From positions 1,054,001-1,118,000 of the forward strand of contig NZ_LR593886.1 of assembly GCF_901538265.1 (NCBI RefSeq): DNA of 64,000 nucleotides, given 5' to 3'. Under the pieces are notes generated by a model, which was not told the DNA's origin, did no database searches, and was given only the letters and a program-made list of their open reading frames with translations. Origin of the DNA: Gemmata massiliana (lineage in GTDB: Bacteria; Planctomycetota; Planctomycetia; Gemmatales; Gemmataceae). The position numbers and the translations under genes are program-made. Every line of letters starts with the position of its first letter. The first letter of the stretch is position 1. Positions 5,250 to 50,727 of the stretch are shown piece by piece.

Positions 5250-5510
5250 ATGTGCGAGCACGTATTCGAGTTCGTGATCCCGTCGAGCGAAGTGGCCGAA
5301 GCGCGAAGGGATGCAATGGAGTACCTGCGGCGCAACTCGGAAGCGGAGTGGGAGGTTGGGGCGCGTTTGATTCTCCATTCCTCCGGCCGTTACGTGCTCC
5401 GACTAATGCAGATCGACCCAGCCGACGGACGGTCCGGCAGAATCACGTATCGGTGGCAACTCACAGGTCTGGCACGGAACAGCCACCTGAAACTTTACAG
5501 CGCGGCGTAA
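5250..5510 (+). CDS. Hypothetical protein, 86 aa, whose 3' end is duplicated at 12.1 kb
   Basis: A small soluble protein (starts MCEHVFEFVIPSSE, ends LKLYSAA) of unknown function. The ATG at 5250 follows AAAGGAAG, a good ribosome-binding site. The last 100 bp, from the codons for about DPADGRSGR to past the stop, recur at 12147-12250 with few substitutions, while the 5' two-thirds do not. This suggests partial duplication or a transposed gene end. Confidence 0.65.
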   Translation: MCEHVFEFVIPSSEVAEARRDAMEYLRRNSEAEWEVGARLILHSSGRYVLRLMQIDPADGRSGRITYRWQLTGLARNSHLKLYSAA

Positions 5511-5514
5511 TGCC
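5411..5514 (+). repeat. Dispersed 104-bp repeat, copy 1 (gene 3' end)
   Basis: This segment aligns base for base with 12147-12250 (constant offset 6736) with scattered substitutions and no gaps. It covers the end of the 86-aa gene and its TAA stop; similarity ends just after TAATGCC. Confidence 0.85.
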
Positions 5515-12073: not shown

Positions 12074-12146
12074 CGGGGGCGTGACACATTCCCGCCGGAT
12101 TCGCCATCCAGCCCAAGCGTTTTGCGTAGCGCCTCGAAATAACCCG

Positions 12147-12250
12147 GTTCGACCCGACCGGTGGGCGGTCCGGCAGAATTACGTATCGGTGGCAACTCAC
12201 CGGGCTGGCACGGAACAGCCACCTGAAACTTTACAGCGCGGCGTAATGCC
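12147..12250 (+). repeat. Dispersed 104-bp repeat, copy 2 (orphan gene end)
   Basis: An orphan copy of the 3' end of the 86-aa gene at 5250-5510, including its TAA (12244-12246). No 5' portion precedes it; instead it abuts the end of the secreted-protein gene region. It lies at the start of a 1-kb debris zone. Confidence 0.85.
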
Positions 12251-17250: not shown

Positions 17251-18177
17251 TCAGTCGGCCGTGCCGAGCGCGTCTGGACCGATGAGCAACTCTTGCCCCA
17301 AACTCCGGCGCGGGGACCGTTCCGGGCGCCAGCGCGGGTCTTCGAACGCCAACCGGCTCCGGCGTACGAACGACACCACCTCCTCGCCTGCGTCGTTGCG
17401 GTACAGGTCCGCCGCGTACTCCGGGAAGTGGTCCGCCTCGACCGCACGCCGTACGTCCAGTGCGAAGTCCGAGAACCGGGCCGCTGAGCCCGATTTCTCG
17501 TGCAGTTGGCGCATCGTGAACCGCCATCCGGTCTCCTGCACCCCGGCGTGCTTCCGGGCCACCCGGTACAGGAACCGCTCGATCCCGCCCGTCAGCAGAA
17601 AATAGTCCTCGTGGATCGTGAGCACCCCACCGCGCTTGACGATCCCTTGGTACAGCCAGTCGGGCACGGTCAGCGTCATCCCCTGGGGCTCGCCGGTCGC
17701 TTCGTCCACCACCTCGGTCCAGCTCTCGAGCCAATGGAACGACGCGAACTTCTTGGTCCCCTGGGCCCGAATGTTGGTGCGCACGGCCGTGTGAGTGAGC
17801 CGGTCCAGGGCCTGGCGCAGGCGCCGGTAGTGCTCCCCGCCCGTGGGCCGGCGCACGGCCTTGAGCAGGTTGTACGGGTGGAATTGGATGACGCGCGCGG
17901 CCGGGAGTCCGCGGTCCAGGGCCTCGGTCACCTGCGTGGCCGCCCAGATCAGGATGTCCGCGTCCCAGATGGTCGCCATCCCGAACGTCGGGTTCGCGGT
18001 CACCTCGACCCACGTGTCCCCGACGTGGTACTTGATGGGCTCCAGGCGCGGGCGCTTGGCCAGGCTGAAGAACGGGCGCTCCATGAGGTCCCGCTGGTCC
18101 CGGACCGGGATGTCCGCGAACGTGGCCGCGAACAGGTCCGGCTGGGCGTCGTGCCCGGGTGGGCGGCGGCGCGTCAC
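17251..18177 (-). CDS. repA: Plasmid replication initiator, RepA/RPA family
   Basis: 308 residues from a GTG. Features of the RPA-type initiator (PF10134-like): IPVRDQRDLMERPFFSL near 23-39, YHVGDTWVEVT, GMATIWDADILIWA, the WHTH-like stretch YRRLRQALDRLTHT and FLYRVARKHAG near 210. Such proteins bind iterons and recruit DnaA and helicase to the origin. The GTG follows the stop of the RHH gene by 3 bp, with the ribosome-binding GGAG inside that gene's last codons, so translation is coupled. The iteron array lies 110 bp beyond its stop. Gene order parA-RHH-repA is typical of alphaproteobacterial-type plasmids. Confidence 0.9.
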   Translation of the reverse strand: MTRRRPPGHDAQPDLFAATFADIPVRDQRDLMERPFFSLAKRPRLEPIKYHVGDTWVEVTANPTFGMATIWDADILIWAATQVTEALDRGLPAARVIQFHPYNLLKAVRRPTGGEHYRRLRQALDRLTHTAVRTNIRAQGTKKFASFHWLESWTEVVDEATGEPQGMTLTVPDWLYQGIVKRGGVLTIHEDYFLLTGGIERFLYRVARKHAGVQETGWRFTMRQLHEKSGSAARFSDFALDVRRAVEADHFPEYAADLYRNDAGEEVVSFVRRSRLAFEDPRWRPERSPRRSLGQELLIGPDALGTAD

Positions 18178-18500: not shown

Positions 18501-19175
18501 TTATGCGTTGGTCAGTGCGGCCCGGGCCCGCCCCGCCCGGCGCCGGCGCGCTTGGGGCAACAACTCGGCGAACAGGGTCCGGATCTCGGTGTCGGCCTCG
18601 CGCCCGCGAGCGCCCATGTTCCACACCACGGCCCCTTGGCCGGGTGCGTCCGCGTACACTTGGCGCAGGGTCAGTGCGGTCGAGGCCAGGGGCAGGCCCA
18701 ACTGGGCAGCGGCCTCGCGCATGTCCCGGGTGAGGCGGTAATTCTTCCCCACCATCGAGAGCACGACGACGGCCCGGGGCAGCGCGCGGCGGATTTCCCG
18801 GGCGTGGCGGAGGGCGCTCGTGGCCTGGGCGAGCGCGCGGACCTCGAGCATGGACGCCTTGCACGGGATCACGGCCAGATCGGCCCACATGAGCAGGGCC
18901 CGGCTCACTTCGGTGTTGCTCCCGGGCCCGTCGGCAACCAGGTAGTCGGTCTCGCGCCCCAGGTGCGGGAGCGTGTCGAGGATCTCGTCGGGTCCGGTCA
19001 GACGCACGATGTGGACATCGGGTGAGGCCTCGCGCACCCATCCGGAACTGGACGCCTGGGTGTCGCAGTCGGCGAGGGTCACGCGGTGCCCCTGCTCCAC
19101 GAGCCAAGTGGCGAGGTGCGCGGCCAGAGTCGACTTCCCAACTCCACCCTTCGAATTTGCAACGACGATAATCAT
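18501..19175 (-). CDS. parA: ParA-family partition ATPase
   Basis: 224 residues. The deviant Walker A is KGGVGKST (9-16) with the signature Lys9 of ParA/MinD ATPases; Walker A' Asp is in LADCDTQAS (36-40) and a later strand reads DYLVADGPG. Length fits the small type Ib ParA that lacks an N-terminal HTH, so autoregulation is probably by the RHH protein. The frame is open far upstream, but the ATG at 19175 begins the conserved first strand. First gene of the parA-RHH-repA operon. Confidence 0.93.
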   Translation of the reverse strand: MIIVVANSKGGVGKSTLAAHLATWLVEQGHRVTLADCDTQASSSGWVREASPDVHIVRLTGPDEILDTLPHLGRETDYLVADGPGSNTEVSRALLMWADLAVIPCKASMLEVRALAQATSALRHAREIRRALPRAVVVLSMVGKNYRLTRDMREAAAQLGLPLASTALTLRQVYADAPGQGAVVWNMGARGREADTEIRTLFAELLPQARRRRAGRARAALTNA

Positions 19176-19229
19176 GGGTCCGAGGAGTAGCGCACGCGGA
19201 CGCGATTGGCAAGCAAGAAATACAACCGA

Positions 19230-19690
19230 CTGTCTGCCCGGGCGGCCAGCCGTCAGGTCGGCCAGCCAGCTGTGTCTCACTTCATAGGTCCGCGAATTCG
19301 GCGCAGCAAATCGATCGCGCCGTTCCGTGCTCGAAACGAACACCGGGAAGTGGTTCGGCGACCCGGTCACGTAATGGAACTTCCCGGCATAGTTTCGCCC
19401 GACGACATTCGATCTGTGGGTATTGGTGCACCGACCGAATCTCGTGTCGGTCGTCTCACATGTCATCGGGCGCAGTTTCAGCACACGGATGCCCGCCCGG
19501 TCAGCGAGATCGCCATCAGTCAGGCCGGACGTCCGGCCGCATTTCCGTACGGTCGACGTGACAGCCGGACGGCTGGCCAGCAAGTCGACCGTACGACCGA
19601 ACGACTGGCCAGTAAGCCCGCCTGACGAGCGGCCAGCCGGATGTCGGGCCGGCCAGTCAGTCCACTGACCCGCCAGTCAGACGCCTGACT
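19230..19690. repeat. Cluster of GGCCAG / CAGTCAG / CCGGAC motifs, candidate centromere
   Basis: Upstream of parA, the motifs GGCCAGCC, TGGCCAGT, GGCCAGTCAG, CAGTCAGG and their inverted forms recur many times, with the densest stretch at 19515-19690. Partition sites of plasmids with RHH proteins are arrays of short repeats beside parA. Similar motifs return at 25555-25625, the far side of the module. No single consensus length is obvious by eye. Confidence 0.45.
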
Positions 19691-20479
19691 GACTCGACTT
19701 CGCACTTTTAGAAGGGAACATCCCGTGCTCCCGATCCCGGGGGCAGTTTCCCGGAGAAACCAGGGCCTCCTGGCGCAGGAGGGGAGACGCCTGTAAGAAA
19801 AGCACACCGACATGGACACCCTTCCGAAGTGCCAGCCGAGCGGTCCCGACCGGTACGACTGTGGATGCCACCGGACCCCGGCTCGGGCCGCGGCTTGCGT
19901 GCGAGTACGGCGGGCACGTCGCTCGCCGCGACCTGTGCGGCCCGCGATAGAGCCTCCACCCACACGTACTGTAAGCCAGACGGCAAGCCGACCGGACGGC
20001 TGCCAGACCGGGCAGATGGAAGGTCGGGTGCCCGGTGCGCCCGACTGCGGCCCCGCTGTTTGGCGCACCGGACCAACGTCCGGCTTACCGCACGGTGAGC
20101 CGAGCGCGGGAAACCTGTGTCCGACTCTCCCGTCCGAGCGGTCTGTTTCCCGACGGTACGGGTGGGTGTGTTGCCGGGGTGTCGACGCGCGACCCGCTCG
20201 GCGTGGCCCGTGAGTGCCGTACACGAGACGAGTGGCTGGTTTCACGTGATGACGGTCGCGACCGGGCACTTCGGTCGGCTCGTGCTCTTGCGTCCGGAGC
20301 AGTACGTCCCCGAAATTGAAACGGGAGCGGCAGGAACTGGGATCAAGTCGGTCAGGAGATCGCGCAACGTGCCTTCCTCGTTCGTACGGGGCGACTCCTG
20401 AAACGCGCGGGCCGAGCGCCCGGCCCGACCCGCGCGCGTGGCATTCAGCCCCTCGAGATCGGGGGTGCTGGCACCCGGG
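19691..20479. other. Plasmid-module region without a supported gene
   Basis: Long open frames exist because of GC bias, but none shows a good ribosome-binding site, family motif or credible codon pattern. A frame from 19812 encodes a Cys-containing start (PDRYDCGCHRTP) that might be a short gene; I cannot support it. Confidence 0.35.
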
Positions 20480-20585
20480 TCCGTGGCCGCGTCAGGCGAT
20501 TCGGGGTGGGGAGGAGGGCCGGTCCGTCGTCCGCTTCGACGAGTACCGCCCGCGCTCGTGTGACGTAGACCGACAGGACCGGGCG
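20480..20585 (-). pseudogene. 3' fragment related to the gene at 22198-22605
   Basis: The minus strand reads ARAVLVEADDGPALL, matching RVRAVLVEADRGPAFL near the C-terminus of the 135-aa protein; the plus-strand DNA similarity runs from GTCAGGCGATTCGGGG to about CGACAGG. The rest of the gene is missing and the end is out of frame, so this is a remnant. Confidence 0.65.
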
Positions 20586-21041: not shown

Positions 21042-21293
21042 TCACGCAACCGCCTGCTTGCGGCCCTTTCGGTCGGCGTCGAGTTGGTGTGTGACCCAGG
21101 TGTGCGCGAGGTCGAGTAGCTTGGCGGCCGGGAGCAAGTCGTCGTGTCCCAGGTTGTCGGTCTCGCGCCACCCGTCGTCGGTCTTGTACCCGCGGGTGAG
21201 CTTGACCGAGTACCAGTTGCCCCTTTCGGCGAGGTTGCGCCAGATCGTGGCTTGCAGTGCTCCGGTGCGGATCTTGTGAGCGGGTTGTGACAT
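21042..21293 (-). CDS. Conserved mobile-element small protein, copy 1 (83 aa)
   Basis: Starts MSQPAHKIRTGALQATIW, continues NWYSVKLTRGYKTDDGW and ends in a helix DLLPAAKLLDLAHTWV plus a basic tail. This strand-rich then helical pattern is shared by a small family I associate with plasmids and integrative elements; it resembles a nucleic-acid-binding OB-like domain, but no function is established to my knowledge. AAGGAG precedes the ATG. A second, near-identical copy is at 31136-31396, and both are preceded by the same foldable leader. Confidence 0.8.
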   Translation of the reverse strand: MSQPAHKIRTGALQATIWRNLAERGNWYSVKLTRGYKTDDGWRETDNLGHDDLLPAAKLLDLAHTWVTHQLDADRKGRKQAVA

Positions 21294-21491
21294 GGTGTTT
21301 CTCCTTACTTTGAGTTGTGGGGCCCGACCCTCGGGCCTTGTGGGACCGTGATGAGAACCGGGTCGAGCCGGGAGCGCAGCGCGGGTGCACGGACAATTAC
21401 GGCGGGGCCGTGGAGCGGAGGAACCGTCATTGTCCTTGTGCCCCCCGGCGCCCGGTTCAGCGTCCCACACCAAAGACCCGAGGGTCGGGCC
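21054..21491 (-). repeat. 438-bp direct repeat, copy A
   Basis: Aligns without gaps to 31157-31594 (offset 10103) with scattered substitutions. It comprises most of the 83-aa gene and its entire leader. Sharp breaks at both ends suggest a duplication or recombination-generated repeat. Both copies have the same orientation, so recombination would delete or circularise the 10.1 kb between them. Confidence 0.9.
21321..21491 (-). promoter_or_regulatory. Structured 5' leader, copy 1 (nested inverted repeats)
   Basis: Four nested complementary blocks: 21321-21335 with 21477-21491 (15 bp perfect), 21340-21346 with 21462-21468 (7 bp), 21355-21362 with 21451-21458 (8 bp) and 21391-21402 with 21424-21435 (11 of 12). 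On the minus strand this folds as one long hairpin that ends 12 nt before the AAGGAG of the 83-aa gene. It could be a riboswitch-like or autoregulatory leader, or a MITE inserted in front of the gene. The second copy keeps nearly all pairs. Confidence 0.7.
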
Positions 21492-21809
21492 GCGCCAACG
21501 CCGGGGAGGAACTGGCGCTGTAGCCGTCCGAGCCTGCTTCGGCGTGCGGGCGCGTCAGCTGTAAACGGCCGCGCCAGGAATGGCGCGTGGGCTCGATCCG
21601 GGGGCACGACCGTTGTGCGAGCACGCGCCCCGGAACCGGTCGATCAACGGACGTGTGCGGCCCGAAATTCGCGACGGAAGTACAACGTGATTCGCTCGTA
21701 ACGACTGGGCTCGGGCTCGCGCATCTGGGCCGGATCCCCTGGGCGCCGGCGCGGCCGGCGGATACGCTTGTGGTTGCAAGGTTTCGGACCCGTATTCAAA
21801 GGAGAACCG

Positions 21810-22197: not shown

Positions 22198-22605
22198 TTA
22201 CCGGTAGTCGTGTTCGCCGTTACTCGGGCCGGTGGTCACGTCAGGCGATTCGGGGAGGGTGAGAAAAGCCGGTCCGCGGTCCGCTTCGACGAGCACCGCA
22301 CGTACCCTTGCGATGTGTGCCGACAGGGCCGCCACGACGCCCGGGTCGTCGTGCACCGGGCTGAACCGCTGCACGTCCAGCAGCGTGTCCAGGCCCTCTC
22401 GCAGTACCGCCAGGAGCCCCGGCGCGGCCGTCATGGCCCACAGGGCCGCGAGCGTTGCGGGCACGGAATCACCGCCCCCCGGGATCCAGAACGGGCGGCT
22501 GGTCACGATCCCGTGCCCGTGGGCATCGCGTATCGTGCCCAGGTCTTCGGTGCCGTCGCGGTCGAAGTGCAGGGTCCAGGGGGCGTGGAGCGGGGTGTCG
22601 GTCAT
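22198..22605 (-). CDS. Hypothetical protein, 135 aa (mobile-module cargo)
   Basis: Starts MTDTPLHAPWTLHFDRDG and continues with a beta-rich then helical part (LREGLDTLLDVQRF, HIARVRAVLVEADRG). AAAGGAAC is a good ribosome-binding site. The family is unknown; a truncated relative lies at 20480-20585. Convergent with the winged-helix gene. Confidence 0.65.
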   Translation of the reverse strand: MTDTPLHAPWTLHFDRDGTEDLGTIRDAHGHGIVTSRPFWIPGGGDSVPATLAALWAMTAAPGLLAVLREGLDTLLDVQRFSPVHDDPGVVAALSAHIARVRAVLVEADRGPAFLTLPESPDVTTGPSNGEHDYR

Positions 22606-22630
22606 AAGCGGGTTCCTTTCGGTGCGAGCC

Positions 22631-22647
22631 GGCCCCACCGCGGGGCC
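22631..22647 (-). other. Short GC hairpin before the 135-aa gene
   Basis: GGCCCC-ACCGC-GGGGCC, 26 bp upstream of the start codon in the minus-strand leader. It is weaker than the leader at 21321. Confidence 0.4.
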
Positions 22648-22807
22648 GATGGGGAGCGCCCGAGGTGCCGGCCCGAGTGACCCGTCCAGCGAAAAGCCGA
22701 AGGCTTCCGCGTGCGGAACGCGGCTTTGGCAGCTTGACGGGCACGCCCGGTGCCTCAGTCTCCCCGCCGATCGGCCTTGTGTGGGACCGGCACCCGAGCG
22801 CGCCGGC

Positions 22808-25633: not shown

Positions 25634-28600
25634 TCAGAACAGGCCCAACTGGGTGCCGGTCGGTTTGATCCGGGCGCGCAACAAGCCCGCGGACTCGCCC
25701 TCGTCGTCGCTCGGAGGGGGTGCGTCGGGCACCGCCGGCGCGATTTCGGGTGCCACGTTCGGCCCGGGCGCCGTTTCGGTCGGTGCGGGAACGTGAGACG
25801 CTTCGGGCGGCGCCGCGACCGAACGGTCCCGAACGGGCGCGATTTCGATGGCCTGCGCGATTTTCATGGCCGCGACCCGCTCGGCCAGTTCCGCGGCCGT
25901 GGGCTCGTCCGCGACCGGGTGGTCCGAAAGCGCGACCCGGAGCCGGTCCCGCAGGTCCGTCAGTTCGTCCAGGTACGCGCCGTGGGCGAACGGGAGGCCG
26001 AGCCGGGCCTCGTACCCGCGCAGCTGGGTTTCCGCCAGGGCGCGGTCTCGCTCCACCTCGGCGCACGCGTCCTCGTAGGACCCGGCCAGCCGGGCCAGGG
26101 CGTTCAGTACGGCCCGTGCTCCGTGCGACTCCCGGGCGAGCGCGGTTTTCCGCACCGTCCGCCCTTCGAGGTACGCGTCCGCCGCTCCGACGGGGTGCAA
26201 CTCGATGCCGAACGCGAGCCCCCGGTACCGCCCGAGCGCGAACGCCCGGGTTTCGGGAACCCGTTCGGGCAGACGGGCGAGCGCGCCCGCCAGCGCGGCA
26301 ACCGCGTCCTTCGGCCCCGCGCTCCGACCGCCGATGACGAGCGCGCCGGGATCGCCGCCCGACACCGTCGCCGCGTCGGCCGTCAGGGCCGCCCGACGCC
26401 GGTCGAGCCGTTCGATCGTTTGGGGCAACTCGCGCACCCGGCGCCGGGCCCGGAACTGCTCGTCCGCGTGACCCCGGCGCAGCACCCCGAGGCGCTGCAG
26501 CTCGGCGTCCGCCTCGGCCAGGGTGAGCACCGCCGGGTTCCCCGACGCGATCGCCTTGACCTCGGCGAAGCTGAGCTCCTGGGTGCCCACGTCCTCGGCC
26601 CGGCGCGCCCCCGATTGCCCGGTCATCACCTGCGCGATGAACCGCGCCTTCGTTTCGAGGGCCTGCCACATGAACGAATCGAAGCTCCCCTCGGTCACGT
26701 ACCGGTACACCGCGACCTCGGCGTTGGTGTTCCCCTGGCGCAGGATCCGGCCCTCGCGCTGCTCCACCTCGGCCGGCTTCCACGGGGCGTCCAGGTGGTG
26801 CAGCGCGGCCAGGCGCGCCTGCACGTTGGTGCCCGTGCCGAGCTTCTGGGTGCTCCCCAGGAGCACGCGCACGGTTCCGGCCCGGACCCGCTCGAACAGG
26901 GCCTGCTTCTTCGCGTCCGAGTTCGCACTCCCGATCGAAGCAATTTGTTCGCGCGGGATCCCGCGTGCGGCCAGGTTCTCGGTGACGGTGTCGTACACCG
27001 AGAACCCCCAGGCGGTCGGCTCGATACCCAGGTCGCAGAACACGATCTGCGTGCCCCGGGTTCCGGCCGTGCGCGTCCAGACGGCGACCACGTTCTCGAT
27101 CAGGGCGCTGATTTTGGCGCCCGCCGCGGCGGGCGCGGTCGGGGACAGCATCCGGGCGTCGAGCGCCAGCTTGCGCCCGTCGGTGGTGATCGCCAGCGCG
27201 TTGTCCACGCGCGGGTCGATCTTCTGGCTCCGGACGCGCTCGTACCGCGCGACCAGCTCGTCCTGGAGCGCGCGCTGCTCGCCGGACATCGGGCACGCGA
27301 CCACGATCGGCTTGCCCCCCTCCAGGGCCGGGCGCGGGAGGTTCAGCGTCTCGGCCGTCTGCACGTCCGCGAACGCGCGGAACAGGTGCTGGAGTTCGGG
27401 CAGGTTGACGAACCTGGCGAACCGGGTCCGGGGCTTGAGGGTCTTCCCGTCCGGGGCGATCTCGAGGGCTTCGACGACCTCCCCGAACGTCGCGGCCCAG
27501 GCGTCGAAGTGCCCGATCCCGCGGGCCGCGAGCCCGTCCGGGTCCAGGTACCGCTGGAGCGTGTACAGCTCGACCATCGTGTTCGACACGGGCGTCCCGG
27601 TCGCGAACACGACCCCGCGCCCCGGGTTCCGCTCGTGCAGGTACCGGCACTTCATCAGCAGGTCGAACGCGCGCTCCGAGCCCCCGGTCTGGACCCCCGC
27701 GACCCGGTCCATCTTGGTCGCGACCTCGAGGTTCTTGAAGGCGTGCGCCTCGTCCACGAGCACGTGGTCCACCCCGAGCTCGTCGAACACGAGCCCGTCG
27801 TCCTTCTTGTCGGCCGCGAGCAGGTCCTTGAGCTTGGCCGCGCGCGCCGCCTTCTGCTTCTCGATGGTCTTGATCAGGTTGCGCTTGGCCCTCGAGTACG
27901 CTTCGGCGGCCCGGTCCGCGAGCAGCCGGTCGTACTCGGCGATCTGGTCCCGCAGGAACCGCTCCTGGAACGCCCGCGACATCCCGATCCGCTCGAAGCT
28001 CGAGTGGGTCACGAGGACCGCGTCCCAGTCCCCGCTCGCGATCCGGGCGGTCAGGTACTTGCGCCGGTCCCGGGTGAAGTCGTCCTTGCCCGCGACCAGG
28101 AGCTTCGCGTTGGGGTACAGCTGCTGGAACTCGCGCGCGAACTGCTCGAGCAGGTGGTTGGGGACCGCGACCAGGGGCTTGTGGGCGAGCCCGGCCTGGC
28201 GCAGCTTCATCGCGGTCGCGGCCATGACGTAGGACTTCCCGGCCCCGACCACGTGCGCCAGGAGCGTATTGCCCCCGGCCACCGCGCGCCACACCGCGTC
28301 CCGCTGGTGCGGGCGCAGGGTGATCCCGGCACTCATCCCCGGGAAGTCCAGGTGGCTCCCGTCGAACTGCCGGGGGCGCAGGTTGTTGAACGCGTCGTTG
28401 TACACCCGGACCAGGCGCTCGGCGCGAGCGGGTTCGGCGAACGCCCAACTGCGGAACCGGTCCTTGATCAGCTTCTGCTTCTCCTTGGCCGCGAGTGTCT
28501 CCTCCGGGTTGACGACCCGCTTGTCGGGGTCGGTGGGGTCCGGGTCGTAGAGCACCGGGGCCTTCATGTTGAGCGCCAGGTCCAGGAGCCACACCCCGTT

Positions 28601-31084
28601 GGCCCGCGCGGTCCCGTAGTCGCTCGTCGCGGCGACCGCGTTCTGCGCGGCCCAGTCGCCCGCGACGCTCCACACCGCGTCCGTGGCCAGGTGCGCCACG
28701 GTGAGGGCCGACGGTTCGACCCCGAACAGCTCGGCCGCGAACGCCCGGACGTCTTCGACCGGGACCCACGGGACCCCCAGGTTCGCGTCGATGTCGCCCG
28801 GGAGCACGTCCTCGGGCTGCACCGCGCGCAGGGCCTCCGCGTTGCGCGCGTAGTCCGGTCCGGCGTGTTCCGCGGCCGCGAGTTTGGCCCGGACGTTACC
28901 CGACAGGTACGCGTCGGCGGTCTCCCACGAACCGGTTCCGGGATCGCGAAAGATCAGTTCGCCGAGTTCCGCGGTCACCGCATCCTCGGACCGCCCATAG
29001 AGTTGGGCGATGTACGGCAGGTCCACCGCGCCGCGCTGGTTGAGTGCGACGAGCAACCCCTCCTCGGCGCTGGCGACGGACGTGACCGGCGGGGTCCGCC
29101 CGACCACGTCCCGGAGCAGGATCGGGGCCTTTTGTGCTTCACCGGTGACCTCGTCGTATTCTTCCAGGGCCATGACCAGCATGGCGTCCGGGTCGTCCCG
29201 GAACTTCACCAGGTTGGGCATCCGGCGCACCACCGAACCGTCGGCCGTGGTACTGAAGGTCGTCTTGTTAATCGGCCCGAAGGCCGACACGAACCGATCG
29301 TAGGCGGTGTTGAGGTCGCGCCGTACATGCCGGCGCTCGGGTTCGGGCCGGTCCTCGTTCTGGGATCGGAGCACGCGGCGCGCCTGATCGCGCAGCTCGA
29401 CGAGCGCGGCGACGCGGCGCCCGACCAGGGAGCCGGTGGCCCACAACTCGGAGCCCCCGTAGGTGACCGGAACGGATCGGCCGTCCAGAACCTGGTGCAC
29501 GCGCCCGTCGCGGACGAAGAAGCTGCCCTCGGTGACGTGGTGCTCGGGCGGGGGCGCGACGAACGCGGTCGGTGCCTCGGGCGGCGCTCGGCGGGCGAGC
29601 GGGGCGAAGCGCGGGAGGTGCTCGAGGGCCCAGTTCAACGATTCGGCCAGGTCGCCGGCGGAGGTGACGCTGTACCCGGTACCGTAAAGCGAGTCCCGGC
29701 TGCTGAACGTGCCGAGCACCATCTCGGGGTGCTTCAAGAAGTAGCGGTTGATCGGAACCGTGGTGCCGTCGATGTCGGTCGCTTGGATCGCGAGCCACTC
29801 GGGATCGGCGTGGTTCGGGGGCTCGTCGAGAGCCCGCTTGCGCAGGAACACGATGTCGGTGACGACGGCCGTGCCCTCGCGCGCGAACGCGTCCGACGGG
29901 AGCCGGACCGCGCCCAAGAAGTCGGCCCGGTCCGCCAGGTACTCGCGGAGCGCGGCGTTCTGCTTGTCGAGCGTAAAGTGGCTCGTGACCAGCGCGAGGA
30001 CCCCGCCGGGTCGGAGCGCGTCGACCGACTTGGCGAAGAAATAGTCGTGCAGCGCGAATTTTTCGCCGCGGTGGCCCAGTTTGACATCGGCAAACGGGAC
30101 GTTGCCGATCACCGCGTCGAGTTCGGGGAGCTTGGTGTCGGCGAAGTTCTCGATCCGGACGTCCTGGTCCGGGTGGAGCGCCCGGGCGATCCGGCCCGAG
30201 GTGCTGTCGAGCTCGACCCCGATGTAGCGCTTGCCCGGGAGTAGGAAGTTCCCGGTCCCGCACCCGGGCTCGAGCACCAGCGCCCCGTCCGGGATCCCGA
30301 GCCGGGTCAGGGCCGCGTGCATCGCGGTGATGACCACCGGGGCCGTGTAGAACGCGTTGAACGTGGTGCGCTTCGCCGACGCGTACTCTTCGGGTGCCAG
30401 TAGGGCCTGCAACTCCGCGCCGAGCGCGGCCCACGACTCGTCCTTGTACCGGCCGGTGGCCGGGTTGGGAAACAGCGACAGCGCGACCGGCCCGAACCCC
30501 GCGAACCGGGCCAGCACCGTGCGCTCCTCGGCGGTCGCGGGACGGGCCTCGGCTTCGACTTGCTGGAGCGTGCGGATCGCGGCCAGAAGGTCTCGGGCCT
30601 TGGCCTTTTCGCCCGGAGCGAACCCGGGGAGCGGGGCGGGCGGGGGAGGGGGGGCCGGTACCGACGGAACCGGGGCGGGTTCCGGAACGTCGTCCGGGAA
30701 CGCGTCGAACAGGCTCCGCGTTACGGTTCGTCGGGCGACGCGTGCCGCGTAGCTTCCTGATCGAGGCGCGCCTCGAGTTCCGCCAGTGCCAGTTCGAGTG
30801 CCGAGCTCGAGTCGAATCCCTGGTTCATTCGGTCCAGATGCGCCGCCCGCAGGTCCGCCGCGTACCGCTCCATCTCCGCCAGAAGCTTGCGCGAGCGGCG
30901 CAGGTAGGTGTGCAGACCCGGTCGGGCTTCCAACAGTTCGAGCACGATCGTCTGGTAGAGCATCGGGTTCGTCCGGGTCGAAGGGGAGGGAGGGCTGGGG
31001 CGCCATCGCGGGAGGAGGAAGTGGAGTTGTTCGCTCCGGGGTTGTAGACCGGATCGGAACGAGGTGCAAGCAGTATTGGGTCAT
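25634..31084 (-). CDS. Giant DNA adenine methylase-helicase fusion (plasmid/phage antirestriction-type)
   Basis: 1816 residues. An Ala/Pro-rich N-terminus is followed by an N6-adenine methyltransferase domain: SAM motif LEPGCGTGNFL near 271 and the catalytic motif IGNVPF (NPPY variant) near 328. A superfamily 2 (SNF2-like) helicase follows: Walker A HVVGAGKSYV near 945, DEAH box VDEAHAFKNLE near 1111 and motif VI QREGRILRQG near 1443, then a coiled-coil-rich C-terminus. Such fusions ride on plasmids, ICEs and phages; P1 DarB is a known relative in kind. AAAGGA lies 7 bp before the ATG at 31084, which supports that start, although the first 120 residues overlap another credible frame (30721-30963). 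Confidence 0.9.
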   Translation of the reverse strand: MTQYCLHLVPIRSTTPERTTPLPPPAMAPQPSLPFDPDEPDALPDDRARTVGSPTGSAHLPAPLAQASGGDGAVRGGPAGGASGPNEPGIRLELGTRTGTGGTRGAPRSGSYAARVARRTVTRSLFDAFPDDVPEPAPVPSVPAPPPPPAPLPGFAPGEKAKARDLLAAIRTLQQVEAEARPATAEERTVLARFAGFGPVALSLFPNPATGRYKDESWAALGAELQALLAPEEYASAKRTTFNAFYTAPVVITAMHAALTRLGIPDGALVLEPGCGTGNFLLPGKRYIGVELDSTSGRIARALHPDQDVRIENFADTKLPELDAVIGNVPFADVKLGHRGEKFALHDYFFAKSVDALRPGGVLALVTSHFTLDKQNAALREYLADRADFLGAVRLPSDAFAREGTAVVTDIVFLRKRALDEPPNHADPEWLAIQATDIDGTTVPINRYFLKHPEMVLGTFSSRDSLYGTGYSVTSAGDLAESLNWALEHLPRFAPLARRAPPEAPTAFVAPPPEHHVTEGSFFVRDGRVHQVLDGRSVPVTYGGSELWATGSLVGRRVAALVELRDQARRVLRSQNEDRPEPERRHVRRDLNTAYDRFVSAFGPINKTTFSTTADGSVVRRMPNLVKFRDDPDAMLVMALEEYDEVTGEAQKAPILLRDVVGRTPPVTSVASAEEGLLVALNQRGAVDLPYIAQLYGRSEDAVTAELGELIFRDPGTGSWETADAYLSGNVRAKLAAAEHAGPDYARNAEALRAVQPEDVLPGDIDANLGVPWVPVEDVRAFAAELFGVEPSALTVAHLATDAVWSVAGDWAAQNAVAATSDYGTARANGVWLLDLALNMKAPVLYDPDPTDPDKRVVNPEETLAAKEKQKLIKDRFRSWAFAEPARAERLVRVYNDAFNNLRPRQFDGSHLDFPGMSAGITLRPHQRDAVWRAVAGGNTLLAHVVGAGKSYVMAATAMKLRQAGLAHKPLVAVPNHLLEQFAREFQQLYPNAKLLVAGKDDFTRDRRKYLTARIASGDWDAVLVTHSSFERIGMSRAFQERFLRDQIAEYDRLLADRAAEAYSRAKRNLIKTIEKQKAARAAKLKDLLAADKKDDGLVFDELGVDHVLVDEAHAFKNLEVATKMDRVAGVQTGGSERAFDLLMKCRYLHERNPGRGVVFATGTPVSNTMVELYTLQRYLDPDGLAARGIGHFDAWAATFGEVVEALEIAPDGKTLKPRTRFARFVNLPELQHLFRAFADVQTAETLNLPRPALEGGKPIVVACPMSGEQRALQDELVARYERVRSQKIDPRVDNALAITTDGRKLALDARMLSPTAPAAAGAKISALIENVVAVWTRTAGTRGTQIVFCDLGIEPTAWGFSVYDTVTENLAARGIPREQIASIGSANSDAKKQALFERVRAGTVRVLLGSTQKLGTGTNVQARLAALHHLDAPWKPAEVEQREGRILRQGNTNAEVAVYRYVTEGSFDSFMWQALETKARFIAQVMTGQSGARRAEDVGTQELSFAEVKAIASGNPAVLTLAEADAELQRLGVLRRGHADEQFRARRRVRELPQTIERLDRRRAALTADAATVSGGDPGALVIGGRSAGPKDAVAALAGALARLPERVPETRAFALGRYRGLAFGIELHPVGAADAYLEGRTVRKTALARESHGARAVLNALARLAGSYEDACAEVERDRALAETQLRGYEARLGLPFAHGAYLDELTDLRDRLRVALSDHPVADEPTAAELAERVAAMKIAQAIEIAPVRDRSVAAPPEASHVPAPTETAPGPNVAPEIAPAVPDAPPPSDDEGESAGLLRARIKPTGTQLGLF
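30721..30963 (-). CDS. Small helical ORF overlapping the methylase-helicase N-terminus
   Basis: 80 residues in a different frame of the same strand. Codon third positions are strongly G/C and the protein is sensible: MLYQTIVLELLEARPGLH, then RSRKLLAEMERYA and ELALAELEARLDQEA, all helical. In the same stretch the giant gene encodes low-complexity Gly/Pro/Arg sequence. So either the large gene starts later than 31084, or the two frames genuinely overlap. No ribosome-binding site is evident for this ORF. Confidence 0.5.
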   Translation of the reverse strand: MLYQTIVLELLEARPGLHTYLRRSRKLLAEMERYAADLRAAHLDRMNQGFDSSSALELALAELEARLDQEATRHASPDEP

Positions 31085-31135: not shown

Positions 31136-31396
31136 TTACTTCACGACCTGTTCGGACTGCTTGCGGCCCTTACGGTCGGCGTCGAGTTGGTGCATCACCC
31201 ACGTGTGCGCGAGGTCCAAAAGCTTCGCGGCCGGGAGCAGGTCGTCGTGTCCCAGGTTCTCGGTCTCGCGCCACCCGTCGTCGGTCTTGTACCCGCAGGT
31301 CAGTTTGACCGAGTACCAGTTGCCCCTTTCGGCGAGGTTGCGCCAGATGGTGGCCTGGAGTGCTCCGGTGCGGATCTTGTGAGCGGGTTGTGACAT
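31136..31396 (-). CDS. Conserved mobile-element small protein, copy 2 (86 aa)
   Basis: Near-identical to the 83-aa protein at 21042-21293 except for a few substitutions (for example Arg to Cys in KLTCGYKTDDGW, Thr to Met in AHTWVMHQL) and a different tail (SEQVVK). Same AAGGAG and same leader. It lies upstream of the giant methylase-helicase gene, 52 bp away, so the two may share a transcript and the leader might control both. Confidence 0.8.
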   Translation of the reverse strand: MSQPAHKIRTGALQATIWRNLAERGNWYSVKLTCGYKTDDGWRETENLGHDDLLPAAKLLDLAHTWVMHQLDADRKGRKQSEQVVK

Positions 31397-31594
31397 GGTG
31401 TTTCTCCTTACTTTGAGTTGTGGGGCCCGACCCTCGGGCCTCGTGGGACCATGATGAGAACCGGGTCGAGCCGGGAGCGCAGCGCGGGTGCACGGACAAT
31501 TACGGCGGGGCCGCACAGCGGAGGAACCGTCATTGTCCTTGCAGCCCCCGGTGCCCGGTTCAGCGTCCCACACCAAAGACCCGAGGGCCGGGCC
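31157..31594 (-). repeat. 438-bp direct repeat, copy B
   Basis: Partner of 21054-21491; see that entry. Right of it the sequence decays into gene fragments, consistent with the edge of the mobile module. Confidence 0.9.
31424..31594 (-). promoter_or_regulatory. Structured 5' leader, copy 2
   Basis: Same nested architecture as copy 1, offset by 10103: 31424-31438 with 31580-31594 (one mismatch), 31443-31449 with 31565-31571, 31458-31465 with 31554-31561, and 31494-31505 with 31527-31538. The loops have changed more than the stems, as far as can be judged by eye. Confidence 0.7.
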
Positions 31595-32069
31595 CCAATA
31601 ACGTGAGGAGAACAAGGACCTACCTGCACGCACATTCGGCCGGTGCGCGTTGCTCGATGTGCGCGAACTAACAAACCGCCCGTGCATTGCGGTCGCAAAA
31701 CGCGTCCTCAGCCGCCCCTGTGCCGCTGCTCGGTGAGCGGCTCGCCTGTTTGCGCTCGTGCTCGACCTGAGCCGCTTCGATCGAGTGCGACGTTTTAAGT
31801 CCGCGTCCTGTTTCGCGCACACGACCAACTTCCGGAAGTGCTCGGTCAGGACCCGCACCTCGTCCTCGGTCAAATGTTCGGTGCTAATGAGCCGGTTGTG
31901 CCGGTCCCCGAACGGGATCGTCACACGGACACGGCGTGCAGCGGGCGCGAGGCCGTGGCGCGGCTCGGGGCGTGCCGTCCGAAGTGTGGGAACTGTCGGT
32001 TCAAGCTCCACACGACCCGGGCCGGTGCCACGGAGCGGTCCAAGAGCTGCCGCCGGTGCGAGCCGGTGA
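31595..32069. other. Decayed region at the module edge
   Basis: No intact gene. A minus-strand frame ending near 31790 has RLISTEHLTEDEVRVLTEHFRKL, a plausible gene fragment of unknown family, interrupted within 100 bp on each side. Confidence 0.4.
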
Positions 32070-40454: not shown

Positions 40455-40476
40455 ACCTCGCGTCAAACACGGAGCT

Positions 40477-40884
40477 TTACGCGCCCCTCACGGCGATCCG
40501 CCGGGGCCGGACCGCCTCGGCTTTGGGCATGCGGACGGTCAGCACGCCGTCCTTCAGCGACGCCTCGATCGCACCCGTGTCCACCTGCTCGGCGATCTTG
40601 AACGCCCGGTAGAAGCTGCCCACGTCATACTCGGCGTAGAGCCGCTTCTTGCCCGCGTTCCGGGGGACGCAGGTGGCGTGCAGAATCATCTCCTCGCCCT
40701 TGCAGGTGAGGGACACGTCCTCCTGCTTCACCCCCGGCAGGTCGGCGTGCAGGATCAGCGCGTCTTCGGTTTCGACGACGTCCACTCGTGGCGTGTACAT
40801 CCGGCCCGACGAGCGCGGCTTGGCCGCCTCGCTCGGGGACCGATCGACCGCTCGGGGCTCGGCGCGTTGCAGTTCGCTGTTCAT
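40477..40884 (-). CDS. HSP20 small heat-shock protein, left copy, second gene
   Basis: 135 residues with an alpha-crystallin domain: YTPRVDVVETEDALILHADLPG (key HADLPGVKQEDV), ATCVPRNAG, and the conserved A-x-x-x-x-G-V-L motif as EASLKDGVLTVRMPK. A C-terminal IAV lies where IxI/V anchors occur. Holdase chaperone. Identical in protein to the right-copy gene 50298-50705 except for the last 20 residues, because the inverted duplication ends inside this gene at 40531. AAGGGAGG precedes the ATG. 47 bp after the first HSP20 gene. Confidence 0.93.
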   Translation of the reverse strand: MNSELQRAEPRAVDRSPSEAAKPRSSGRMYTPRVDVVETEDALILHADLPGVKQEDVSLTCKGEEMILHATCVPRNAGKKRLYAEYDVGSFYRAFKIAEQVDTGAIEASLKDGVLTVRMPKAEAVRPRRIAVRGA

Positions 40885-41461
40885 GGGTTACCTCCCTTCT
40901 GGATGGTTTTGGTGACGGGATGGAGCCGGGGTTATACGGCCCCGGCCAGTGCGGGCCGCTCGGCCTTCACGGCGATGCGGCGCGGCTTTGCGGCCTCGGC
41001 CTTGCGCAGGGTGACGGTGAGCACCCCGGTCTCGTACTTGGCCTCGACCGCGTCCGGGTTCACGGCCACCGGCAGGGTGATAGTGCGGCTGAACGCGCCG
41101 TACCCGCACTCCTGGTACAGCCACGCCCCGTCCTCGTTCGGCGGCGCGGGGCGCTCGGCGGAGATGGTGAGTCGGTCGCCGTCGGCCACCGACACCCCGA
41201 TGTCCTCGGCCGTCAGGCCCGGGGCCTCGGCCTCGACGTACAGCGCGTCCGCGTCCTCCCACACGCTCAGCGGCGGGTAGGCAGGAGCGGGCGGCGACAG
41301 GGACGGTCCGTCGAACCCGAGCGGACCGAACAGGCGGTCCATGTGCTCGAACAGGCGGTTGGCGAACATGTGGTCCTCCTTCCTCGGTAGGTGCGGGCTC
41401 TGGGCACCCGCGTGATGCGACCCATCCGAACGTAGGAGCGGGCCGCACCCGGGAACCCGGG
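40531..41461 (-). repeat. Inverted 931-bp HSP20 duplication, left copy
   Basis: Reverse-complement partner of 49721-50651 (coordinates sum to 91182). Proteins are identical across the block, and I noted a single synonymous difference (near 40684) without checking every base. One edge falls in CCCGGGTTCCCGGG, the other inside the second HSP20 gene. Confidence 0.93.
40932..41369 (-). CDS. HSP20 small heat-shock protein, left copy, first gene
   Basis: 145 residues. An N-terminal arm MFANRLFEHMDRLFGPLGF, typical of class A/C sHSPs that contact client or dimer, is followed by the alpha-crystallin domain (WEDADALYVEAEAPGLTAED, FSRTITLPVAV) and YETGVLTVTLRKAEAAKPRRIAV. Amino-acid identical to the right copy at 49813-50250. 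GGAGGACCAC precedes the ATG. Heat or stress induction is likely from family, but no CIRCE or ROSE element is visible. Confidence 0.93.
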   Translation of the reverse strand: MFANRLFEHMDRLFGPLGFDGPSLSPPAPAYPPLSVWEDADALYVEAEAPGLTAEDIGVSVADGDRLTISAERPAPPNEDGAWLYQECGYGAFSRTITLPVAVNPDAVEAKYETGVLTVTLRKAEAAKPRRIAVKAERPALAGAV

Positions 41462-49720: not shown

Positions 49721-50651
49721 CCCGGGTTCCCGGGTGCGGCCCGCTCCTACGTTCGGATGGGTCGCATCACGCGGGTGCCCAGAGCCCGCACCTACCGAGG
49801 AAGGAGGACCACATGTTCGCCAACCGCCTGTTCGAGCACATGGACCGCCTGTTCGGTCCGCTCGGGTTCGACGGACCGTCCCTGTCGCCGCCCGCTCCTG
49901 CCTACCCGCCGCTGAGCGTGTGGGAGGACGCGGACGCGCTGTACGTCGAGGCCGAGGCCCCGGGCCTGACGGCCGAGGACATCGGGGTGTCGGTGGCCGA
50001 CGGCGACCGACTCACCATCTCCGCCGAGCGCCCCGCGCCGCCGAACGAGGACGGGGCGTGGCTGTACCAGGAGTGCGGGTACGGCGCGTTCAGCCGCACT
50101 ATCACCCTGCCGGTGGCCGTGAACCCGGACGCGGTCGAGGCCAAGTACGAGACCGGGGTGCTCACCGTCACCCTGCGCAAGGCCGAGGCCGCAAAGCCGC
50201 GCCGCATCGCCGTGAAGGCCGAGCGGCCCGCACTGGCCGGGGCCGTATAACCCCGGCTCCATCCCGTCACCAAAACCATCCAGAAGGGAGGTAACCCATG
50301 AACAGCGAACTGCAACGCGCCGAGCCCCGAGCGGTCGATCGGTCCCCGAGCGAGGCGGCCAAGCCGCGCTCGTCGGGCCGGATGTACACGCCACGAGTGG
50401 ACGTCGTCGAAACCGAAGACGCGCTGATCCTGCACGCCGACCTGCCGGGGGTGAAGCAGGAGGACGTGTCCCTCACCTGCAAGGGCGAGGAGATGATCCT
50501 GCACGCCACCTGCGTCCCCCGGAACGCGGGCAAGAAGCGGCTCTACGCCGAGTATGACGTGGGCAGCTTCTACCGGGCGTTCAAGATCGCCGAGCAGGTG
50601 GACACGGGTGCGATCGAGGCGTCGCTGAAGGACGGCGTGCTGACCGTCCGC
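49721..50651 (+). repeat. Inverted 931-bp HSP20 duplication, right copy
   Basis: Reverse complement of 40531-41461. Includes both HSP20 genes apart from the last 50 bp of the second. Confidence 0.93.
49813..50250 (+). CDS. HSP20 small heat-shock protein, right copy, first gene
   Basis: 145 residues, identical to the protein at 40932-41369, with the same GGAGGACCAC ribosome-binding site. The sequence upstream differs beyond 92 bp from the ATG, so promoters may differ between copies. It starts the operon HSP20-HSP20-HSP20. Confidence 0.93.
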   Translation: MFANRLFEHMDRLFGPLGFDGPSLSPPAPAYPPLSVWEDADALYVEAEAPGLTAEDIGVSVADGDRLTISAERPAPPNEDGAWLYQECGYGAFSRTITLPVAVNPDAVEAKYETGVLTVTLRKAEAAKPRRIAVKAERPALAGAV

Positions 50652-50705
50652 GTGCCCAAGGCCGAAGCGGTCCGGCCCAAGCGGATCGCCGTGACGGGCC
50701 GATAA
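50298..50705 (+). CDS. HSP20 small heat-shock protein, right copy, second gene
   Basis: 135 residues. Same as 40477-40884 up to the LTVR of the last strand, then RVPKAEAVRPKRIAVTGR instead of RMPKAEAVRPRRIAVRGA. The C-terminal IxV-type anchor is therefore flanked differently, which can change oligomer contacts. 47 bp after the first gene. Confidence 0.93.
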   Translation: MNSELQRAEPRAVDRSPSEAAKPRSSGRMYTPRVDVVETEDALILHADLPGVKQEDVSLTCKGEEMILHATCVPRNAGKKRLYAEYDVGSFYRAFKIAEQVDTGAIEASLKDGVLTVRVPKAEAVRPKRIAVTGR

Positions 50706-50727
50706 ACCGGCCCCGGTAGCGACCCAG

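Follow-up and report, generated by a model that had tools for sequence, protein, structure and literature searches.

A covarying hairpin element before planctomycete genes is probably a single-stranded DNA promoter of conjugative elements

What is the long, deeply nested hairpin that stands in front of a small gene of Gemmata massiliana, and does it work as RNA or as DNA? It lies in a stretch of 64,000 nucleotides (nt), hereafter the window, which covers positions 1,054,001-1,118,000 of a 10.1-Mb genome on one contig, and it precedes the gene for a protein of 83 amino acids (aa). A first-pass annotation of the window had described nested complementary blocks at 21321-21491, with a second copy before a gene for an 86-aa protein, and had favoured a regulatory RNA serving these proteins over a miniature inverted-repeat transposable element (MITE). 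We find that the hairpin leader is real and belongs to a widespread family of elements of about 165 nt whose shape is kept by covariation, that its pairing is kept at the DNA level, and that it probably acts as a promoter in single-stranded DNA (ssDNA).

The complementary blocks are present, and they fold far better than shuffled sequence: as RNA, 21321-21491 reached -112.4 kcal/mol (z -8.2) and as DNA -62.9 (z -7.4), with 0 of 200 shuffles as good in either case. The 83-aa gene is on the minus strand (ATG at 21293), and the plus strand that had originally been folded is therefore the template strand. The structure does end just before the ribosome-binding site, at 14 nt from AAGGAG and not at the 12 nt first given. 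The second copy at 31424-31594 (fold -101.7, z -5.5) has mismatches within its outer stem and is 95% identical to the first, because of which these two copies alone give almost no covariation; the description of stems kept while loops differ was overstated for this pair, although it holds across relatives. A DNA identity search with the leader alone returned only four copies, three in the same genome and one in another (G009), and would have missed the family, so that a structure model was needed. Another leader copy of the same genome lies at 8,824,692 and, besides the copies before the small gene, the identity search of this genome yielded only short weak matches. A fourth relative of the 83-aa gene, at 3,132,164, is preceded by a leader whose sequence is quite unlike these and which folds too.

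Close relatives of the 83-aa protein in other planctomycetes nearly all have a folded leader of about 165-200 nt, diverged in sequence but of one architecture, the exceptions being locus L031 and one of two genes in L020. This architecture comprises an outer stem P1, stems P2 and P3, a long hairpin at the centre in which CAAGC/GCTTG hardly varies, and a small GGCC...GGCC hairpin just before the Shine-Dalgarno (SD) sequence; 21321-21491 corresponds to the core of copy 1 plus an outer extension of P1 seen in the closest Gemmata copies. In a MAFFT alignment of 25 leaders, none of them from the window, 34 of 44 pairs had changed on both sides, and 82.9% of the cells were paired, a share that was 68.3 +/- 0.8 for shuffles and no more than 47.7% after sliding of the partner. 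The idea of a conserved structured element at the gene start with covarying homologues was thus borne out, and the outcome named in the first-pass annotation as refuting it, homologues that lack covarying pairs, did not occur. A covariance model built from these 25 leaders (R1) detected both copies in the window, as well as a third element that the first-pass annotation had missed and that stands before a different gene (Table 1); the DNA fold of this third copy (22620-22800) had a z of -2.5, with 2 of 200 shuffles as good. A second model, R2, was built from 93 members, including copies 1 and 3 but not copy 2. Among 95 Gemmataceae genomes, R1 found 83 places in 23 genomes at E <= 0.01, which is a lower bound because the strict filters miss both of the original window copies, and R2 had matches in 8 of 392 genomes spread over the phylum, the present genome included (E <= 1e-5, strict filters). 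Rfam gave no match in the window at gathering scores and, in 19 loci, only three chance-level matches, elsewhere than in the window.

The position of the element relative to genes is nearly fixed. After removal of four antisense matches and four duplicate places from 108 matches, an open frame was found behind 95 of the remaining 100, and in 89 a start codon on the same strand lay 16-30 nt from the element end, as counted without a chance control by a script that took SD-preceded starts within 130 nt. The followers were of the 83-aa type in 38 cases, a 67-aa type in 19, giant helicases/methylases in 10 and the 'APWSLHFDRDGTED' type in 6, together with smaller groups and singletons that include a possible DNA methylase; one ParB (647 aa) follows at 69 nt, beyond the usual distance. 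Beyond the 83/86-aa type, at least seven gene families with two or more members each stand behind the element, plus single ones, and the proposed tie to this one protein was consequently given up. The 67-aa type is a family of 65-75 aa with the pattern 'PTHIAYQVRD...PLDGRITLRV' (L143:1696-1902(+), L144, L148, L255-L264 and others), which is also found behind most of the phylum-level elements; the one member scanned was without a Pfam match, and we regard the family as a candidate for an establishment or anti-defence protein.

Does natural selection keep these pairs in RNA or in DNA? In a functional RNA, substitutions of Watson-Crick pairs by G-U are much more frequent than substitutions by A-C. 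We counted pairs that were found by folding either strand and were at least 80% Watson-Crick, which for the 93 rows of the element gave 2298 Watson-Crick, 23 G·T, 45 A·C and 113 other mismatches (eight types). The control, RNase P RNA from 30 Gemmataceae loci, gave 1349 Watson-Crick, 84 G·T, 11 A·C and 19 others, and the G·T to A·C ratios differed with a Fisher p of 3e-13, a value computed over cells that are not independent. The pattern was the same when the rows were thinned to below 70% identity (G·T 11, A·C 25), when elements before other genes were taken alone (14 and 24) and in the MAFFT alignment of 25 leaders, which is not model-fitted (1 and 6). Where pairing is good, the frequency of G·T does not exceed that of other mismatches; G·U in the sense strand is thus treated like any mismatch, while A·C in the sense strand, which is T·G on the template strand, reaches about 1.6 times the background per mismatch type. 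In keeping with this, the consensus fold of the element was better for the template than for the sense strand (-99.3 vs -95.0), and that of RNase P RNA was the reverse (-237.2 vs -272.9). By this computation the pairing of the element is kept at the DNA and not the RNA level, and the RNA nature originally proposed was not upheld.

The element is also tied to conjugation. TrwC-type (MOBF) relaxases occurred in 19 of 23 element-bearing Gemmataceae and in 8 of 72 others (p 3e-10). Within 20 kb of such a relaxase, on either side of it, we counted 57 elements around 35 relaxase genes, and every one was on the strand opposite to the relaxase; at up to 50 kb this held for 62 of 65, and the three that differed were the window copies. 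This count covered 87 elements (the 83 R1 places and four known copies), 17 of which had no listed relaxase on their own contig; it considered relaxases on element-bearing contigs, and among the relaxase genes used one was partial and another fragmented. In 21 loci whose genes were predicted by a simple script, the genes behind an element were opposite to the relaxase in 32 of 32 cases, compared with 236 of 384 other genes (p 8e-7).

A comparison of 281 intergenic regions, in which the element itself was the most shared piece, led to a motif resembling an origin of transfer (oriT): a hairpin with a conserved 3' flank, CCTATGCnnnGCATAGGGAAGAYGYCTG, whose arm variants are compensated. Accepted by eye where hairpin arm and 3' flank were both present, it occurred in 14 of 22 loci (L275-L278, L282-L289, L291, L292), in all 14 on the relaxase strand; in L286, L288 and L291 the arm is imperfect and the motif was found in one of two motif searches only. 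No convincing motif was seen in L279, L280, L281, L290, L293, L294, L075 and L220. Five near matches were rejected, three of them on the other strand, and so were five unrelated matches, one of them in the window; shuffled sequence yields 2.8 per locus set. In nine loci the element genes lie between the motif and the relaxase and point at the motif, and in five (L282-L286) the motif is about 90-150 bp before the relaxase domain. The nic site of R388, whose oriT is of MOBF type, likewise has a hairpin and then 3' single-stranded sequence up to the nick, and the nick-side arm and that sequence are essential, as described in PMC4176350. The candidate motif near the clusters resembles this oriT in having a hairpin with a conserved 3' flank, unlike the element, which is multi-copy, stands before genes and is not the oriT. 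If the motif is an oriT, and presumably the nick site, the transferred strand is the relaxase-coding strand and therefore the template of the element genes; a transferred strand that serves as template would be what an ssDNA promoter requires, a step that depends on the candidate oriT.

Several of the operons behind the element resemble those of plasmid leading regions. In L277 the order is element, PC4-like gene, ParB (645 aa) and ArdC (N-terminal domain and metallopeptidase), and L287 differs from this by a single small gene that separates ParB from ArdC. Other loci have a C5 methylase (L280), an N6/N4 methylase (L284) or a SNF2/ResIII helicase (L293) behind the element. In Singulisphaera acidiphila the plasmid pSINAC03, which is typed as conjugative, MOBF and MPF_T, has the element (49 bits with R1, 76 with R2) followed by a PC4-like, a hypothetical and a ParB gene. 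These operons, in L277, L287 and pSINAC03, resemble the leading region of F, where the order is ssb, DUF905, ParB (652 aa) and psiB, and where Frpo2 lies upstream of ssb (PMC9849209). According to PMC9849209 and PMC11541004, early expression from ssDNA has been shown for F-type plasmids. The Frpo/ssi elements of these plasmids are long hairpins of the transferred strand directly before leading-region operons (PMC9849209, PMC11541004), and the element described here would likewise be a hairpin of the transferred strand before operons of leading-region type; in both cases the operons open with a gene of ssDNA-binding type and carry a ParB of about 650 aa as well as antirestriction and methylase genes, with several copies per element. 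For Frpo of F (two copies) and five homologues the wobble pattern was that of the element, with 7 G·T against 13 A·C and a fold of -277.6 on the template and -253.3 on the sense strand; the Frpo stretch measured was 394 bases, the element being about 165 nt. A stem-loop in ssDNA, as in Frpo/ssi promoters, is likewise seen here in the DNA folds of copies 1 and 3 (z -7.4 and -2.5) and in the covariation. Frpo is found in Enterobacteria and the element in Planctomycetota.

Taking together the conserved fold, the DNA-level pairing, the near-fixed position, the MOBF association, the strand rule near relaxases, the polarity of the oriT-like motif and the leading-region-type genes, all of them computational results, we consider it probable that the element represents a Frpo-like family of single-strand promoters, folded ssDNA on the strand that is template for the following gene. 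A conjugative element would enter the recipient as ssDNA, and its transferred strand would fold into the hairpin of about 165 nt, from which host RNA polymerase could begin transcribing the operon next to it ahead of second-strand synthesis. This operon would supply arrival genes, namely an ssDNA-binding-like protein, ParB, ArdC antirestriction, DNA methylases, a helicase and small proteins without assigned roles. The use of the element by RNA polymerase is a proposal; the element would be active only in its single-stranded form, and second-strand synthesis would end the hairpin-driven transcription.

A number of observations weigh against this proposal. For the three copies in the window, the nearest relaxase is 37-48 kb away and encoded on the same strand as they are, and the oriT-like motif was not found in the window; perhaps these copies sit in a rearranged island. 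The nearest relaxase is of TrwC type (G000:C1:1123072-1123890(-)) and lies 5 kb past the window end. In L282, L284, L285 and L286 one element lies beyond the motif and would enter last. The leading genes and tra genes of F are on one strand, whereas the element genes are opposite to the relaxase gene. A TTG[AC]C stretch is present in 59 of 93 elements, but we saw no -10-like hexamer at the usual spacing, the best being 4/6 to TATAAT in 1 of 93 elements; R2 gave at best 9.9 bits (E 5) on the F leading region and five Frpo homologues; and a position weight matrix of the 3' end of the element scored F's Frpo within background, because of which sequence homology to Frpo was dropped. Since two Frpo features, the boxes and sequence similarity, are lacking, the element is not classed as Frpo but only as Frpo-like in its working. 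At the level of pairs, columns 31-154 (U·G 17/25) and 61-103 (G·U 14/25) of alignment A3, outside the filter, are G·T-rich in the sense strand, and over all 44 pairs of the 108-row alignment the counts were G·T 179 and A·C 153, still far from RNase P RNA at the loosest cut (169 and 18). The preference for template over sense is modest (45 vs 23; p 0.01, or 0.03 after thinning), but the contrast with RNA is not. Finally, a pyrimidine tract that could form an outermost helix, P0, with the SD region co-varies with that region (8 of 20,000 permutations as good, with 38 of 40 rows kept and two rows without a leader left out), which an RNA leader would explain too. Because P0 is weak in several rows (L089, L022, L092, L066), we did not use it as a pillar, though it is real as a tendency; the tract may lengthen the DNA hairpin at its base, or its role may lie in the transcript.

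How do other explanations account for the same data? A folded transferred strand could instead be a single-strand initiation (ssi) site that recruits primase or RNA polymerase to prime the second strand, its place before genes being secondary. Such a site draws on the same DNA-level, strand-specific evidence as the promoter, yet clusters have several copies, and these stand at a nearly constant distance from the start codons of many genes, which points to gene expression; we hold this explanation to be unlikely. A structured mRNA leader, whose anti-SD tract would mask or expose the SD sequence and which would alternate between the long P1 stem and the hairpin before the SD, perhaps upon binding of the encoded protein, would fit the distance of 16-30 nt to start codons in 89 of 100 cases, the strong covariation, that of the anti-SD tract included, the one strand common to P1 and the 3' hairpin, and the two consensus pairs rich in sense G·U. 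It is nevertheless quite unlikely, as G·U stays at the mismatch background where pairing is good (RNase P RNA having 84 G·T and 11 A·C), the antisense strand gives the better consensus fold, and the relation to the strand of the relaxase and of the oriT-like motif is superfluous for RNA. The cis-regulatory leaders in Rfam share a conserved structure before the SD, but none is a relevant match, and unlike them the element lacks G·U tolerance at well-paired positions and precedes many unrelated genes of one mobile element.

A palindrome acting in double-stranded DNA, whether as the operator of a shared regulator or as a cruciform, would favour neither G·T nor A·C strongly, as is the case here, and would agree with the near-palindromic nature of the element, whose antisense strand scores in the model too. 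A plain operator, however, needs no long paired arms of freely varying sequence, and the strand rules of 57 out of 57 and 32 out of 32 would be left unexplained, making this very unlikely. The MITE considered originally, or any other mobile repeat, would account for terminal inverted repeats and several copies per genome, but hardly for matches that precede SD-bearing start codons at 16-30 nt and on the same strand in 89 of 100 cases, nor for a genome in which the identity search, beyond the copies before the small gene, found only short weak matches; we therefore give it almost no credence, target duplications as such not having been looked for. The single-strand promoter remains our preferred interpretation.

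The window itself has a plasmid-like context, with RepA and ParA genes (Table 1); the true start of ParA lies further in than the listed open reading frame, because the CbiA match begins at residue 138. A structure model of the 83-aa protein (beta4-alpha, pLDDT, the predicted local distance difference test, 92.7) had PC4 and PUR proteins as its top three Foldseek matches, none of them significant (best E 0.36, a PC4 homologue), and its best structural Z was 5.5, to PURA. From this model it is plausible that the product binds nucleic acid. Family members in the set A2 had no convincing Pfam, NCBIfam or PHROGs match. Distant relatives of the protein occur without the element; the wider family is common in planctomycetes and, as far as seen, mostly element-free (L028-L045, L061, L063, L068-L072), and profile scores in Gemmataceae are bimodal (>=139 bits vs <=92 bits). 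The product of the gene behind the third copy was without a Pfam match. The 1816-aa helicase also has SNF2-rel, DEAD and N6_Mtase matches below the Pfam cut-offs, and ten of its relatives elsewhere lie directly behind an element. The order of the small gene and the giant helicase/methylase varies: the small gene comes before it in L015, L003 and the window (31136) and after it in L016.

Table 1. Positions of the element copies and of genes and sites discussed in the text (window coordinates; R1 and R2 are the two covariance models)
Feature	Coordinates	Strand	Remarks
Element copy 1, core, model positions 1-165	21319..21482	-	R1 40.6 bits, E 1.1e-6; R2 82.7 bits, E 4.5e-14; DNA fold z -7.4
Element copy 2	31422..31586	-	R1 38.3 bits, E 3.3e-6; R2 79.8 bits
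Element copy 3, before a different, unnamed gene	22629..22781	-	R1 93.1 bits, E 8.7e-18; R2 104.3 bits
Shine-Dalgarno AAGGAG of the 83-aa gene	21301..21306	-	read off the sequence
Pyrimidine tract able to pair with the SD region (P0), copy 1	21503..21513	-
Pyrimidine tract able to pair with the SD region (P0), copy 2	31603..31612	-
83-aa gene downstream of copy 1; predicted beta-beta-beta-beta-alpha, PC4/PUR-like	21042..21293	-
86-aa gene downstream of copy 2	31136..31396	-	93% identical to the gene of copy 1 in A2
135-aa gene downstream of copy 3, 'APWTLHFDRDGTED' family	22198..22605	-	start codon 23 nt from element
1816-aa helicase, next gene after the small gene of copy 2	25634..31084	-	Pfam ResIII and Helicase_C above cut-offs
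RepA replication initiator, context of plasmid or integrative and conjugative element (ICE) type	17254..18177	-	Pfam RPA PF10134, E 1.6e-79
ParA-type ATPase, open reading frame as listed	18504..19583	-	Pfam CbiA, E 1.2e-17

The window further contains several repeats. At 20473-20581 and 22222-22331, downstream of elements 1 and 3, lie two pairs of stretches that are 75% and 84% alike and are perhaps pieces of a duplicated gene module. An inverted repeat of 986 nt, at 40476-41461 and 49721-50706, has arms that are 99% complementary and separated by 8.3 kb; it has the look of a mobile element present twice with cargo in between. A direct repeat of 118 nt with 87% identity is found at 5397-5514 and 12133-12250.

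We found no open-access paper on single-stranded DNA promoters in Planctomycetes or on conjugative relaxase plasmids of Gemmata, and none of the open-access papers listed for ssDNA promoters together with covariation, the leading region or homologues is on planctomycetes; the word 'planctomycet' is absent from the main text of PMC11541004. In PMC9849209 and PMC11541004, candidates in F-type plasmids were sought through similarity to five known sequences and through -35/-10 boxes. It is possible, and we put it forward tentatively, that planctomycete conjugative elements switch on a whole set of arrival genes through a deeply conserved, covarying family of transferred-strand DNA that is known by its shape and its CAAGC/GCTTG stem and not by sigma-70 boxes, and that would constitute a separate class of ssDNA-dependent transcription start, other than Frpo.

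For a conjugative element that arrives in a new host, early gene expression from ssDNA is an aid to survival. Because a structurally defined family with compensatory changes occurs in another phylum, the shape rules of such a promoter could be read from evolution, and the wobble count offers a simple way of telling folded DNA and folded RNA apart in intergenic elements that covary. The element also points to a set of small, uncharacterised proteins as probable products of establishment or anti-defence genes.
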